Source: Actinospica acidithermotolerans
Lineage (GTDB): Bacteria > Actinomycetota > Actinomycetes > Streptomycetales > Catenulisporaceae
NCBI RefSeq assembly: GCF_018139625.1
Contig: NZ_JAGSOH010000040.1
Span: forward strand, 1-54,434
Length of the DNA stretch: 54,434 bases
Direction: 5' to 3'
In this document: positions 50,278 through 54,434 of the stretch, in pieces
Layout: each line of letters opens with the position of its first letter
How positions within the stretch are numbered: position 1 is the first letter of the stretch
Program-made: the position numbers and the translations under genes
Notes under the pieces: model-generated
Seen by the model: only the letters and a program-made list of their open reading frames with translations
Database searches by the model: none
What the model was told of the DNA's origin: nothing

Positions 50278-50673
50278 GTGCGCTCGCGCGCCACAGGCCT
50301 CTGCCTCGCCCTGATCCTGCTCGTCGCGGCCGTCCCGGCCGTCCTCGACTGCTGCCTGCACGGGCATCTGCGCACCCAGCACAGCGCCGCGCTGCGCCAT
50401 CTGCCGCTCGCCGTCGACGAGACGACCGATGCCAGCACCGCCCGCGGCAACACCGCCCGTGGCTGCGCCGACCAGGCCGCGCCCACCCAGAACCCGTACA
50501 TCGAGACGGCCTCCGGTGGCGGCGGCGGAGCCCCCGCGACCCGCAGCAGCGACATCGTCGCCGCGTCCGTAGCCACCCCCGCCCTCGTCGCGTACGGCGC
50601 GCGGCGCACCACCCGCGCCGCCGACAGCACCGGCCCGCCCTTATGGCTGAGCACCTGCGTGAGCCGCACCTGA
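50278..50673 (+). CDS. Uncharacterised small membrane-anchored or secreted protein
   Basis: The 131-residue product has a hydrophobic N-terminal segment (LCLALILLVAAVPAVLDCC, about residues 8-26) and an Ala/Thr/Gly-rich, low-complexity remainder that ends PPLWLSTCVSRT. AGGGGG lies 9 nt before GTG 50278. I do not recognise a family. The Cys-Cys after the helix and the cysteine near the C terminus are the only notable residues. A 70-codon ORF follows on the same strand. Confidence 0.5.
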   Translation: MRSRATGLCLALILLVAAVPAVLDCCLHGHLRTQHSAALRHLPLAVDETTDASTARGNTARGCADQAAPTQNPYIETASGGGGGAPATRSSDIVAASVATPALVAYGARRTTRAADSTGPPLWLSTCVSRT

Positions 50674-50782
50674 CCGGTCGTCAGTCCGCGGCTCCGGTTC
50701 ACCACACCCTCCGCCGCGGTCGAGCACGCCCGAAATCAGCCGACCCACCCGGATCTCAAAGCCAGAGCGGAGCTCAACGATC

Positions 50783-50995
50783 ATGAAGACCTTCAGCACG
50801 GACGGACGCGTCCCCCTCGGCGTCGTCCTCGATGACGCCGGCGATCGCGCCCCCGCGACCACCCCGCACCCCGCCGACATCGAGACCGCCGACCTGGACG
50901 AGGTGCTGGCCGCCTGCGTCCAGCCGCGCACCGTCTCCCTCCCCGGCCGCGAACCGCTGGACCTCGACGCCATCAGCGATCTCTGGCTCGACTGA
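50783..50995 (+). CDS. Uncharacterised 70-residue acidic peptide
   Basis: The product starts MKTFSTDGRVPLGVVLDDAG, contains one cysteine and ends LDLDAISDLWLD; it is acidic and has no signal peptide. GCGGAG precedes the ATG at about 10 nt. Its size and position next to a peptidase-regulator gene recall a precursor peptide or small regulatory partner, but no leader motif of a known RiPP class is evident. It converges on the SARP-M16 gene. Confidence 0.45.
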   Translation: MKTFSTDGRVPLGVVLDDAGDRAPATTPHPADIETADLDEVLAACVQPRTVSLPGREPLDLDAISDLWLD

Positions 50996-51065
50996 GGCGG
51001 CACTGCCGATGGCCGGTGCCGAAGGCCGGCTCCCATGGCCGCCGACCGCGAGCGCGCCAGCCGCG

Positions 51066-53762
51066 TCACGCCTCCTTGTAGCGCTGCACCCTGCGGCCGA
51101 GCAGGTACGTCGGGAGCACGCACACCCCCAGGTTGAAAAGCCAGATAAAGACGATGACACCGATGGTCACGTCGTCGGCCGGATCGGTATCGAACGTCAC
51201 GATGATGGATATCGCGGTGAACAGGATGGTGGCCACGAGAAACGTCCAGAACGCGATCCGAACCAGGACCTGCACGGTCTTAGCAGCGACGGTCTGCGTC
51301 GGTCTCTGGTCTCTCCACTGCGCTGCTCCTGGCGTTCCCGGCGTGCTCGGCATGCCGGGAACGCCGGGCATGCCAAACACGCCGGGCATACCTGGCGTGC
51401 CCGGCATGCGCATGGGAATCTGACGCGGGTCGCGCGGAGGCTGCCGGATGACCCGCTCAGGCGGAATCGAGGCGTCGAGCGGGGCGAGGAATCCCGGAGG
51501 TGCGTCGAAGAGGCCCGGCTCGATCGCGATCTGCGATCCGTCACGGCTCCACAGCCGCCTCGCCCCATCGGGCCAGGCCTGCATCGCCACGCACTCCGCG
51601 TACTGAACGGTCGCGAAGGCTCCGTTCCGGTGCAGGCTCACCGCCGACGCGCCGACGACAAGCTGCGCGCTGGGATCGTCGTGCGCGCGGTAGGTATCAC
51701 CGATCGCCGTCACGGCCGACCCGGATGAGACGGCCGCATAACCGGCAGCATCGGCGTCAAGGCTGCGCCCCGGCAGTATCAACAACGCCGAGCCCAGCGC
51801 CTCGGCCGCCGCATTGTGCACGTCATGCGCGGTAGTTGCGCGGAATTCATCGAGGAGGTCGGCCTCGCGCGTGTGCGGGCGGCCGAGGAGCAGGTCGGCG
51901 GCGAGGCCGGGCAGCGCCTCGACGGCCGCGTTAGGTGCCTGGTGAGCCTCGAGGGCCCGGCTGCGGACGGCTTCCAGAGCCTCCGGATCGACGTCGCCCT
52001 CCCGCAGTTCGGCGAGCAGGTTAATCAGAGCCCTGATGAGCTTCTCCTGCATCGCCGGCAGCGCGTCGGCGGTCGCGTGGATCTCGGCGTACTCGGCGTC
52101 ACGCGCGGCATAGTCGGCGCTGATCGCGTACGACAGACCACCCTCGTGACGCAGGCGCTTGAACAGCTCCCGCTCAAGCAGCTCGGTAAACAGATTCGCC
52201 GCAGGTCCGCGCCGTACGACCGCACTCAGTCCGACCACCCCTTGAGGCCCGCCCGAGATGTAGGCAGGCGTCGTCGGCAGCACCGAGGACGGCAAGGGCA
52301 GCGGCATGCGCCGCCCGGCGGGCAACTGCGGATCAAGCCCGGCCGGCACCTCGTCGCCGCTGAACCAGAGCACAGCGTTCTCGCGGGTGAAGTACTTCGA
52401 GACCCACGCGCGCAGATCATCCGGCGTGAGCGCGGGAAGCCCCAGCTCCCCGAAGCCCGGAATGCCGTAGCCACCCGCCCCGTATCGCGACGCCGCCAGG
52501 TGCCGGGTCCATCCGAGCCCACGATGGCTGGCCTCGGTGTCCAGGATCGACTTCTCGGTCTCCAAGCGTTCGAACGGCAGATCGTGCAGACTTTTGCACA
52601 CGCTGTGGATGAACTCGACCGCTTCATCCGCGCTGCCCTGCATGAGGAAATGCGTCACGGTCGCACTGGTCACCCCATTGTGGTGCACATCGCCCGGACC
52701 GAGCCCGTGCAGCGCGAGATGCTCGATCAGATGCGTGATCCCCGCGCGCGCCAACGGTTCATCGGCCATGCCCACGCGAAACGTGATGCCAGCACGCTGC
52801 CGCGCTCCGGGCAGTGCGGGACCGAACAGCACCGGGATGCCGGCCACCATGGTCCGTCGAACCTCTAAGCCCTCCAGGCCCTCTTGCTCCGGCGCCCCAG
52901 CGGGACTGTCGGCGACCTCGACCACCTCGGCACTCTCGACCGCCTCAGCGCCGTCGACCACGGGCACGGCGTCAACCGCGACCGGATCGCCGCCGAACGC
53001 GTCTAACGCCGGGTCAGCGTTGAGCATGGCCTGGTAAAGGCGCTGGACCGCCGCCGAAGGATCGATCCCGAGCTCGTGGGAGAGCGACTGCCGCAGCCTC
53101 TGGAATGCGTTGAGCGCATCGGTCTGGCGGCCGCCGCGGTAGAGGGCGAGCATCAGCTGCTTGTGGAAGGACTCGTGCAACGGATATTCAAGCGCCAACG
53201 CCTGAAGCTCGGCCGTCGTCTGCCGGTGCCGCCCGAGCCGCAAGTCGCAGTCGATACGGGCATCCAGCGCCTGAAGCCGCATCTCGCGCAACTCTTGAAC
53301 ACGAGCCTGCCACTCTTCGAGCCCAGATACGCCCTCGGCCGGCTCGCCACGCCACAGCGACAGCGCCGCCGCATACTTCTCGGACGCCGCCGGCCAATCG
53401 GCCGACTCGCGCATCCTGCCACCCTCCGCGCACAGCGCGGCGAACTCGGCGATGTCCATCTCCTCGGACCCAACGTCGATGACATAGCCGACCGACGCGT
53501 TCCGTATTCGCGCGGCACCGTCCACACCGAGGAGACGTCGCAGGCGACCGACGTGGTTGTAGAGCGACGACGCGGCCGAGGGCGGCGGGTCGTATCCCCA
53601 GAGCGCCGTCGTCAGTTTCACCGTGGGCACGGTCTTGCCGGCGTTGAGCAGGAGTGCGGCGAGCAGGATCTCCGGCATTCGCTGCTCGATCCGCACCGGC
53701 GCGCACTCCGCTTCGAGCTGAACAGTGAGGGGGCCGAGCAACCCGAACCGCATGTCCACCAT
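51066..53762 (-). CDS. SARP/BTAD regulator fused to an M16 metallopeptidase domain and a two-helix membrane anchor
   Basis: About 898 residues. The N terminus is an AfsR/SARP-type DNA-binding domain (FGLLGPLTVQ, SAASSLYNHVGRLRRLLG, about 5-100) and a BTAD helical domain (about 105-250, ending LSHELGIDPSAAVQRLYQAML). After an acidic linker comes an M16-type domain with the zinc motif HLIEH (His344, Glu347, His348), a downstream Glu410 in SILDTEAS, and an M16_C half containing RHEGGLSYAIS. A collagen-like Gly-X-Pro tract (about 786-815) leads to two hydrophobic helices (about 830-856 and 864-888). ATG 53753 is a near-equal alternative start. Confidence 0.82.
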   Translation of the reverse strand: MVDMRFGLLGPLTVQLEAECAPVRIEQRMPEILLAALLLNAGKTVPTVKLTTALWGYDPPPSAASSLYNHVGRLRRLLGVDGAARIRNASVGYVIDVGSEEMDIAEFAALCAEGGRMRESADWPAASEKYAAALSLWRGEPAEGVSGLEEWQARVQELREMRLQALDARIDCDLRLGRHRQTTAELQALALEYPLHESFHKQLMLALYRGGRQTDALNAFQRLRQSLSHELGIDPSAAVQRLYQAMLNADPALDAFGGDPVAVDAVPVVDGAEAVESAEVVEVADSPAGAPEQEGLEGLEVRRTMVAGIPVLFGPALPGARQRAGITFRVGMADEPLARAGITHLIEHLALHGLGPGDVHHNGVTSATVTHFLMQGSADEAVEFIHSVCKSLHDLPFERLETEKSILDTEASHRGLGWTRHLAASRYGAGGYGIPGFGELGLPALTPDDLRAWVSKYFTRENAVLWFSGDEVPAGLDPQLPAGRRMPLPLPSSVLPTTPAYISGGPQGVVGLSAVVRRGPAANLFTELLERELFKRLRHEGGLSYAISADYAARDAEYAEIHATADALPAMQEKLIRALINLLAELREGDVDPEALEAVRSRALEAHQAPNAAVEALPGLAADLLLGRPHTREADLLDEFRATTAHDVHNAAAEALGSALLILPGRSLDADAAGYAAVSSGSAVTAIGDTYRAHDDPSAQLVVGASAVSLHRNGAFATVQYAECVAMQAWPDGARRLWSRDGSQIAIEPGLFDAPPGFLAPLDASIPPERVIRQPPRDPRQIPMRMPGTPGMPGVFGMPGVPGMPSTPGTPGAAQWRDQRPTQTVAAKTVQVLVRIAFWTFLVATILFTAISIIVTFDTDPADDVTIGVIVFIWLFNLGVCVLPTYLLGRRVQRYKEA
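51327..51412 (-). repeat. Collagen-like Gly-X-Y coding repeat
   Basis: About nine 9-bp units encode GTP-GMP-GVF-GMP-GVP-GMP-STP-GTP-GAA in the SARP-M16 protein, just before its membrane helices. The units are degenerate at the DNA level. Confidence 0.75.
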
Positions 53763-53849
53763 CACCACCCAGCCGAGTCGCTCGCCGTCGCCGAGGCAAG
53801 TACAGCACTTCACCAGGTGGCTAAGGCTACAGAGGTCGGGCGGTGGTCG

Positions 53850-53893
53850 TGTGCGACGCGTGTTGGCTCGATGTTGGATGGATGTGCCGCAGG
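53850..53893. promoter_or_regulatory. Four 11-bp direct repeats, candidate SARP operator
   Basis: Four contiguous 11-mers begin at 53850, 53861, 53872 and 53883: TGTGCGACGCG, TGTTGGCTCGA, TGTTGGATGGA and TGTGCCGCAGG. Direct repeats with an 11-bp pitch are the classical SARP-binding layout. They lie between the SARP-M16 gene (minus) and the StrR-like gene (plus). A TAGCCT on the minus strand (53824-53829) could be the -10 of the SARP-M16 gene. Confidence 0.5.
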
Positions 53894-53951
53894 TCAGCGA
53901 GGGTTTTTCCGAGCTTCACCCTTCCTGTCGCCACCTGCAGGGGTTCACACC

Positions 53952-54434
53952 ATGCCTACCTCCACCACGTCTCTCAGCCGCTCCTCCGAAGTACCCGTCG
54001 GCCGCCTCGACCTGTCCGGTTCGCCGCGCCTGAGCAGCGGCATCGACAAGCAGCACGTCTGCGCCCTGGCACAGCTCGACCCGCCGACGCTCCCTCCCGT
54101 ACTCGTCCACCAGCGCACCCTTCGCGTGATCGACGGGATTCACCGAGTCCACGCCGCGATCCTGCGCGGAGACGCGACGATCGCCGCCGAGCTGATCGAC
54201 TGCGACGAGGCCGAGATCTTCATCCGCGCCGTCCAGGCCAATGCAACCCACGGCCTTCCGCTCTCCCTCGACGACCGCCGAGCCGCCGCGAGCCGAATCC
54301 TCGAGACCCACCCCCAGTGGTCGGACCGCATGATCGCCAAGATCGCCGGCCTCTCCCCGAACACCGTGGGCGCCATCCGCCGCCGCCAGGCCGACGCGCC
54401 TTCCCCCGCCCCCCGCCACCGCATCGGCCTAGAC
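53952..54434 (+). CDS. StrR-like / ParB-fold pathway regulator, 3' end outside window
   Basis: From ATG 53952 (AGGGG upstream) the frame stays open for 161 codons to the window end. It reads PVGRLDLSGSPRLSSG, PPTLPPVLVHQRTLRVIDGIHRVHAA, FIRAVQANATHGLPLSLDDR, HPQWSDRMIAKIAGLSPNTVGAIRRR. This is the ParB-like N-terminal domain plus HTH found in StrR-type activators of antibiotic gene clusters. The C-terminal part lies beyond the edge. It is divergent from the SARP-M16 gene. Confidence 0.8.
   Translation, partial: MPTSTTSLSRSSEVPVGRLDLSGSPRLSSGIDKQHVCALAQLDPPTLPPVLVHQRTLRVIDGIHRVHAAILRGDATIAAELIDCDEAEIFIRAVQANATHGLPLSLDDRRAAASRILETHPQWSDRMIAKIAGLSPNTVGAIRRRQADAPSPAPRHRIGLD

Follow-up and report, generated by a model that had tools for sequence, protein, structure and literature searches.

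SARPs control many antibiotic gene clusters, and the signal by which they are activated is largely open. A gene of Actinospica acidithermotolerans near the end of contig NZ_JAGSOH010000040.1 (the window, i.e. the whole analysed stretch of 54,434 nucleotides) raises the question of whether a peptidase could take in such a signal, as one frame joins a SARP DNA-binding module to an M16B peptidase and a predicted two-helix membrane anchor. M16 enzymes take ligands of a known type (short peptides), and with such an enzyme as the putative input domain the question can be tested in a single protein. We tentatively favor the view that the product is a membrane-anchored SARP-family regulator with an M16B input domain, which would act at least at its own divergent promoter. 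What was computed in this respect comprises the architecture, the M16B fold, the intact zinc site, the conservation in two species and a conserved repeat block. In the following G000 is the source genome, G001 is Actinospica durhamensis CSCA 57 and G002 is a third genome of the genus; L numbers denote loci.

The Pfam models Trans_reg_C, BTAD and Peptidase_M16_C matched the fusion protein above their cut-offs (Table 1); two further models, for the M16 N-terminus (0.089) and for Collagen (0.14), remained below theirs. A phmmer search against solved structures aligned residues 4-253 with AfsR (8hvr, 7.1e-38), residues 4-275 with EmbR (2fez, 7.8e-32) and residues 326-471 with the zinc protease 4nnz. 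The succession of an OmpR-type winged helix and a BTAD domain places the protein in the SARP family, and as no NB-ARC match was found with Pfam at E up to 1 it is not a large SARP of the AfsR type. Translation may start at Met4 (53753), because the residues upstream of it are unlike between G000 and G001. A hydropathy scan yielded two hydrophobic segments (836-854 and 865-883). Their flanks are basic and the loop that joins them is acidic; thus both termini are predicted to lie inside the cell. The scan is a crude one, which flagged four segments in L159, a SARP with AAA/NB-ARC matches. The preliminary description of the locus had named the same order of parts and likewise placed both ends in the cytoplasm. 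For the SARP module, the M16 domain and the two-helix anchor the order was borne out by Pfam, model and hydropathy, and the charges of helix flanks and loop predict the proposed orientation. The collagen-like spacer, which it had counted among the parts, is not a conserved one because 23 of the 50 residues of the second linker are missing in G001.

The peptidase part was modeled from an alignment of 72 M16 sequences (65 of 85 listed gene copies and 7 more). For residues 298-898 the mean predicted local distance difference test score (pLDDT) was 89.5. The best structural matches were bacterial M16B peptidases: VIA-align of model residues 1-379 gave 3hdi with Z 34.2 and 2.6 Å over 365 residues, and 7v4y (Z 34.2) and 3amj (Z 30.9) matched over about 360-365 residues. 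Foldseek concurred with M16 proteases as top rows. Thus a non-M16 fold was rejected and the HLIEH residues lie in an M16 fold, a point on which the preliminary description had staked its reading. A model of the whole protein had a mean pLDDT of 61.6 and was used for disordered stretches only; it was too weak for the SARP part because only two of the aligned sequences carry one. The beta-rich domain that follows the peptidase may have a PH-like fold, which is a guess; the structural matches given above concern the peptidase and not this domain.

The zinc site was conserved in the aligned members with H344 in 69/72, E347 and H348 in 72/72 each and E410 in 69/72. Both fusions are among the members with an intact HxxEH and distal Glu. 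In the alignment to 4nnz E410 falls on the distal Glu, which we take to be the M16 zinc ligand. The intact HxxEH and the plausible distal Glu of the preliminary description are therefore upheld by conservation, by the 4nnz alignment and by the M16 fold of the model. Furthermore, R538 is kept in 70 and Y545 in 65 of the 72 members. The distance between H348 and E410 is 61 residues in 69 members and 60 in three. The canonical spacing from the zinc motif to the distal Glu in M16 is 76 residues; the spacing in this family of 60-61 residues is thus shorter. The three exceptions at the zinc site (L126:5806-7497, L103:6313-7998 and L091:6316-8001) come from tandem pairs of Actinoplanes, with H changed to R and the distal E to D or T. 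Because they are one copy of each pair, the zinc site appears to be present in one copy and absent from the other in these Actinoplanes species; the tandem copies resemble active/inactive M16B heterodimers.

A search for the same fusion in other actinomycetes, as the preliminary description had proposed, was successful. With the whole protein as query, one further full-length copy was found in 60 genomes (source genome included), namely in G001 with 76% identity. The fusion is thus present in two of the three Actinospica genomes examined. Between G000 and G001 the ratio of non-synonymous to synonymous substitution rates (dN/dS) in the SARP part was 0.15 (winged helix) and 0.135 (BTAD); each of the two M16 halves had a ratio of 0.22 and the beta domain one of 0.21. 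The folded domains of the fusion are under purifying selection. The most alike part was the winged helix with 88% identity. The first linker was 37% identical, with 15 of 50 residues gapped and a dN/dS of 0.63, and the second was 52% identical with a dN/dS of 0.535.

If the SARP module served as a regulator it should retain residues that contact DNA. The contacts of AfsR with DNA and RNA polymerase are named in PMC10936776, and the comparisons below extend as far as the accessible part of that paper. Six contacts are rated highly conserved there; both fusions have the same residue as AfsR at four of them (Q48, W74, P79, R94) and a similar one at the other two (K95R, T88N). N at the position of T88 is the commonest residue in related SARPs (15/27). 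The base-reading R92 is kept, and so are R240, L243, E246 and L247 of the AfsR BTAD domain in the phmmer alignment. Upstream of the fusion gene a 50-bp non-coding block is identical in G000 and G001, and within it two adjacent 11-bp direct repeats were noticed. AfsR binds two 11-nt repeats (PMC10936776, accessible part). Because the spacing is that bound by SARPs, the repeats are a candidate SARP operator. Allowing for up to two mismatches the pattern occurred once in G000, once in G001 and not at all in G002. Beyond the block lies the divergent gene of a ParB-like helix-turn-helix regulator. Its counterpart is divergent in G001, too (L039:3284-4336; phrog_1033 ParB-like 1.6e-10, Pfam HTH_24 1.9e-8); G002 had no match at E 1e-10, and relatives were present in 20 of 41 genomes searched, the source genome included. 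The ParB-like protein presumably resembles StrR-type cluster regulators. A sigma-70 consensus scan of positions 50600-54000 found 0 promoter-like sites versus 0.2 expected. Judged from the partly kept contacts and the conserved candidate operator, DNA binding by the fusion and action at this locus are plausible; how it would activate transcription is less certain. To this extent the data agree with the regulator that the preliminary description had envisaged; the peptide capture, cleavage or release that it also proposed would go beyond them.

Several points weigh against such a regulator. Five of the 12 named DNA contacts of AfsR are changed (S46I, S80P, Q81S, R87Y and S91G). Q48 is kept in 0/27 related SARPs, and its alignment in the fusion may therefore be due to chance. 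Replacement of R59, D71, E76 or R173 of AfsR by Ala impaired activation (PMC10936776, accessible part); these residues correspond to N, T, Y and E in the fusion, so that none is kept. T at the position of D71 and Y at that of E76 did not occur in any of these 27 SARPs. All four positions vary in those SARPs as well, and they are not a strict defining feature of the family. Because of the changed RNA polymerase contacts activation by the fusion may differ or be lost. The probability of the repeat pair arising by chance in the 50-bp block was about 0.005 at lag 11 and about 0.06 when all lags between 8 and 24 were allowed, and the repeat had been noticed by eye before the statistical test. No second copy of the pattern with up to two mismatches was present in the genomes G000 or G001, i.e. 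no other target was found. Finally, the membrane helices were under weaker constraint, with a dN/dS of 0.47 between G000 and G001.

Table 1. Features of the fusion gene and its upstream region in the 54,434-nucleotide window
Feature	Position	Strand	Basis or remark
SARP-M16B-2TM fusion gene	51066..53762	minus	898 amino acids plus stop, single open frame
OmpR-type winged helix of SARP, residues 4-97	53472..53753	minus	Pfam Trans_reg_C 1.4e-6 at residues 33-93; dN/dS 0.15
BTAD domain, residues 102-247	53022..53459	minus	Pfam BTAD 6.8e-39; dN/dS 0.135 for residues 98-250
First linker, fast-evolving, residues 251-300	52863..53012	minus	dN/dS 0.63; pLDDT <50 at 254-298
M16B peptidase domain, residues 301-676	51735..52862	minus	predicted model; Pfam Peptidase_M16_C 2.8e-10
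Zinc motif H344-L-I-E347-H348	52719..52733	minus	conservation among 72 aligned members
Distal Glu E410, predicted zinc ligand	52533..52535	minus	69/72 aligned members; aligned to 4nnz
Beta-rich domain 3' of peptidase, residues 688-785	51408..51701	minus	strands at 391-450 of model; conserved in ten family members
Second linker, Pro/Gly (collagen-like), residues 786-835	51258..51407	minus	not conserved; pLDDT <50 at 787-825
Predicted two-helix membrane anchor, residues 836-854 and 865-883	51114..51257	minus	hydropathy, charge; helices in model
Non-coding block of 50 bp, identical in G000 and G001	53857..53906		
Two adjacent 11-bp direct repeats, 9/11 alike, candidate SARP operator	53864..53885	plus	
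Divergent ParB-like helix-turn-helix regulator gene, cut by contig end	53952..54434	plus	80% identical over residues 43-197 to G001 copy

Bacterial M16B peptidases act as pairs. DNA binding, the dimer, the membrane location, the peptidase activity and gating by a peptide are what we infer for the fusion, which may work as follows. The M16B peptidase would replace the usual NB-ARC/TPR part as the input domain of a SARP and would probably pair with a second copy, thereby joining two SARP modules. These would bind the 11-bp direct repeats between the fusion gene and the ParB-like gene and control at least both genes. A short peptide would enter the M16B chamber, perhaps be cut there, and alter the action of the SARP part at the DNA. 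Gating by a C-terminal domain has a precedent because the NOD part of AfsR inhibits its SARP part (PMC10936776, accessible part). Taken to its full extent, the protein would be a peptide-sensing one-component regulator, in which an intracellular peptide is caught and cut in the M16B chamber and occupancy sets the action of the joined SARP pair at the divergent promoter. We consider this possible, but rather doubtful. The peptide could be a breakdown product or the remnant of a signal peptide at the membrane. If peptide sensing were true, an M16 peptidase would be a signal receptor for transcription.

A different role of the SARP part is suggested by the relatives of the peptidase. A contig scan gave 240 M16 relatives, the best 80 of which were used for locus counts. 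The gene caller found the M16 gene in 79 of the 80 loci and missed that of L090. A gene of a family termed F58 was located directly upstream on the same strand in 75/79 loci, and the distance was within 50 bp in 75/78 gene pairs. A six-frame search detected both M16 and F58 in L090, which brings the count to 76/80. Four loci lacked an F58 gene directly upstream of any M16 copy: L055 (Actinospica), L091, L099 and L128. In L128 a fragment of F58 was present nearby. Among the 79, the Actinospica locus alone carried a SARP, which lies in the frame of M16. A six-frame search with working positive controls detected neither F58 nor SARP in 12 more remote loci (L054 and L138-L148, with about 1.5 kb of flank). 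The F58-M16B pair appeared as a conserved unit of two genes in Streptomyces, Micromonosporaceae and Kutzneria (L040-L047, L056-L134; e.g. L040:8569-11318). F58 is an uncharacterised helical-repeat protein of about 315 amino acids, and its M16B partner mostly has two membrane helices. Three F58 members had no Pfam match above cut-off and one had no NCBIfam match; the resemblance to DUF4034 is our assumption, not confirmed by Pfam. In the literature searched we found no paper linking DUF4034 with M16 and no name or study for the F58-M16B pair.

A profile of the M16 part matched in 2/14 genomes of the taxonomic family, both Actinospica, with no match in G002 at E 1e-10. The samples of phylum and class, which overlap and include the source genome, had matches in 6/396 and 18/394 genomes, respectively, and 72,556 plasmid records yielded one weak match. 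In a midpoint-rooted M16 tree, from which gene copies with fewer than 350 matched residues were dropped, the peptidase of the fusion sat within a mostly F58-paired clade with a Shimodaira-Hasegawa-like approximate likelihood ratio test (SH-aLRT) support of 99. The SARP part grouped among SARPs of the same family with weak support (86/56). F58 was absent at the fusion locus in both G000 and G001; only distant F58 relatives were present elsewhere in these genomes (E 2.8e-53 and 3.5e-59). Because the fusion is nested in the F58-paired clade the simplest history would be an ancestral F58-M16 pair in which, in Actinospica, a SARP took the position of a lost F58. Thus the SARP part might be a recruited scaffold that replaces the lost partner and no longer regulates genes. 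It would stand exactly where F58 is usually found, BTAD is helical as well, and the contacts to RNA polymerase and some of those to DNA are altered. Yet the winged helix, with W74, P79, R92 and R94 kept, is the part most alike in the two species, the identical repeat block lies upstream in both genomes, and no sequence relation between F58 and SARP was found (hhalign probability 0.9%). We regard a mere scaffold as unlikely.

Equally improbable to us is a bifunctional protein, the SARP part of which turns on a set of peptide genes while trimming of the resulting peptide at the membrane falls to the M16 part. The preliminary description had considered a peptidase that also controls the genes of the peptide it matures; a conserved peptide gene was not detected at the locus. 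M16 peptidases and a SARP do occur as separate genes of the cacaoidin cluster (PMC8068269, accessible part), and a 70-amino acid open reading frame (ORF) is convergent to the fusion gene. However, this ORF had no relative in G001 or G002 and, in 98 other genomes, only two marginal matches within larger frames (E 0.008 and 0.009). In addition, a different gene follows the fusion in G001, and in several Streptomyces loci the standalone M16 gene adjoins, as judged by eye, housekeeping genes such as glmS. As it has no clear relatives the ORF is unsupported as a conserved substrate. It is located at 50783-50995 on the plus strand, ends in LDLDAISDLWLD and has a coding-like composition according to the gene caller.

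Still less probable is self-release, in which the M16B part upon a signal would cleave the linker of its own chain, so that the SARP module could leave the membrane. Membrane-bound regulators that are released exist, and anchor, protease and DNA-binding part are united in a single chain here. Yet both linkers are fast-evolving with indels, which makes linker self-cleavage less likely and tells against the release of the transcription factor in the preliminary description. Moreover, M16 peptidases act on short peptides in a closed chamber. A frameshift, an assembly join or a chance read-through of two genes can practically be dismissed; the preliminary description had named a frameshift or assembly join as a refutation. 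No examined locus outside the genus has the fusion, but the independent genome G001 has an ortholog with the same in-frame junction, a dN/dS of 0.245 over the whole length and folded domains under purifying selection.

The fusion resembles several known systems in part. Like AfsR and other large SARPs it has an N-terminal SARP module and a large C-terminal part, which differs in that M16B and a membrane anchor stand in place of NB-ARC, TPR or LAL. EmbR, to our knowledge, has no membrane anchor. It too couples a SARP module to a C-terminal domain of unrelated kind, FHA (PMC10936776, accessible part). FHA, in contrast to M16B, is not a peptidase. Fold and zinc motif are shared with the M16B peptidases of Bacillus halodurans (3hdi), Thermus (TTHA1264/1265, 7v4y) and Sphingomonas (3amj), for which we know of no DNA-binding or membrane part. 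Fused forms exist among regulator-metallopeptidases of the XRE-M78 type; the peptidase and helix-turn-helix families of IrrE/DdrO and XRE-M78 are other than those of the fusion. These systems also tie a metallopeptidase to a transcription regulator, but IrrE cleaves a separate repressor (PMC7907104, accessible part). LxmP1/LxmP2 and Cao15 of class V lanthipeptide clusters are actinobacterial M16 proteins as well, and the cacaoidin cluster contains a SARP gene; M16 leader peptidases have been proposed for class V lanthipeptide clusters (PMC8068269, accessible part). In contrast to the fusion they are separate proteins in biosynthetic clusters. No lanthipeptide precursor or synthetase genes were recognised by eye among the gene starts near the fusion, not all of which were domain-scanned, on a contig that ends 672 bp from the gene.

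Small, medium and large SARPs and SARP-LAL are distinguished in two reviews, one of which adds an undefined class 'other' (PMC10972967, PMC12224297, as far as accessible); the word peptidase is absent from the main text of both. The preliminary description knew of no characterised protein of this architecture. In the literature searched we found no published SARP-M16 protein, with many subscription papers outside coverage; SARP and M16 peptidase appeared together only as the separate genes of the cacaoidin cluster (PMC8068269, accessible part).

The closest relative of the peptidase part is the F58-M16B pair. Peptidase and beta domain are 43-50% identical over the matched part and mostly accompanied by two membrane helices; the difference is that F58 precedes the peptidase gene in the pair, which lacks a SARP, and that the fusion carries a SARP and lacks F58. 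The comparison thus exposes a widespread membrane gene pair, and the fusion may hint at its job. Finally, the genome of A. acidithermotolerans encodes two proteins that contain BTAD and 4-5 hydrophobic segments each (L160:1274-4492 and L161:3336-6656), with a LysM domain in L161. These LysM-BTAD membrane proteins share BTAD and predicted membrane helices with the fusion. They differ from it in that BTAD is C-terminal, after several hydrophobic segments, and in having no peptidase match. Thus membrane anchoring alone is not new for a BTAD protein.

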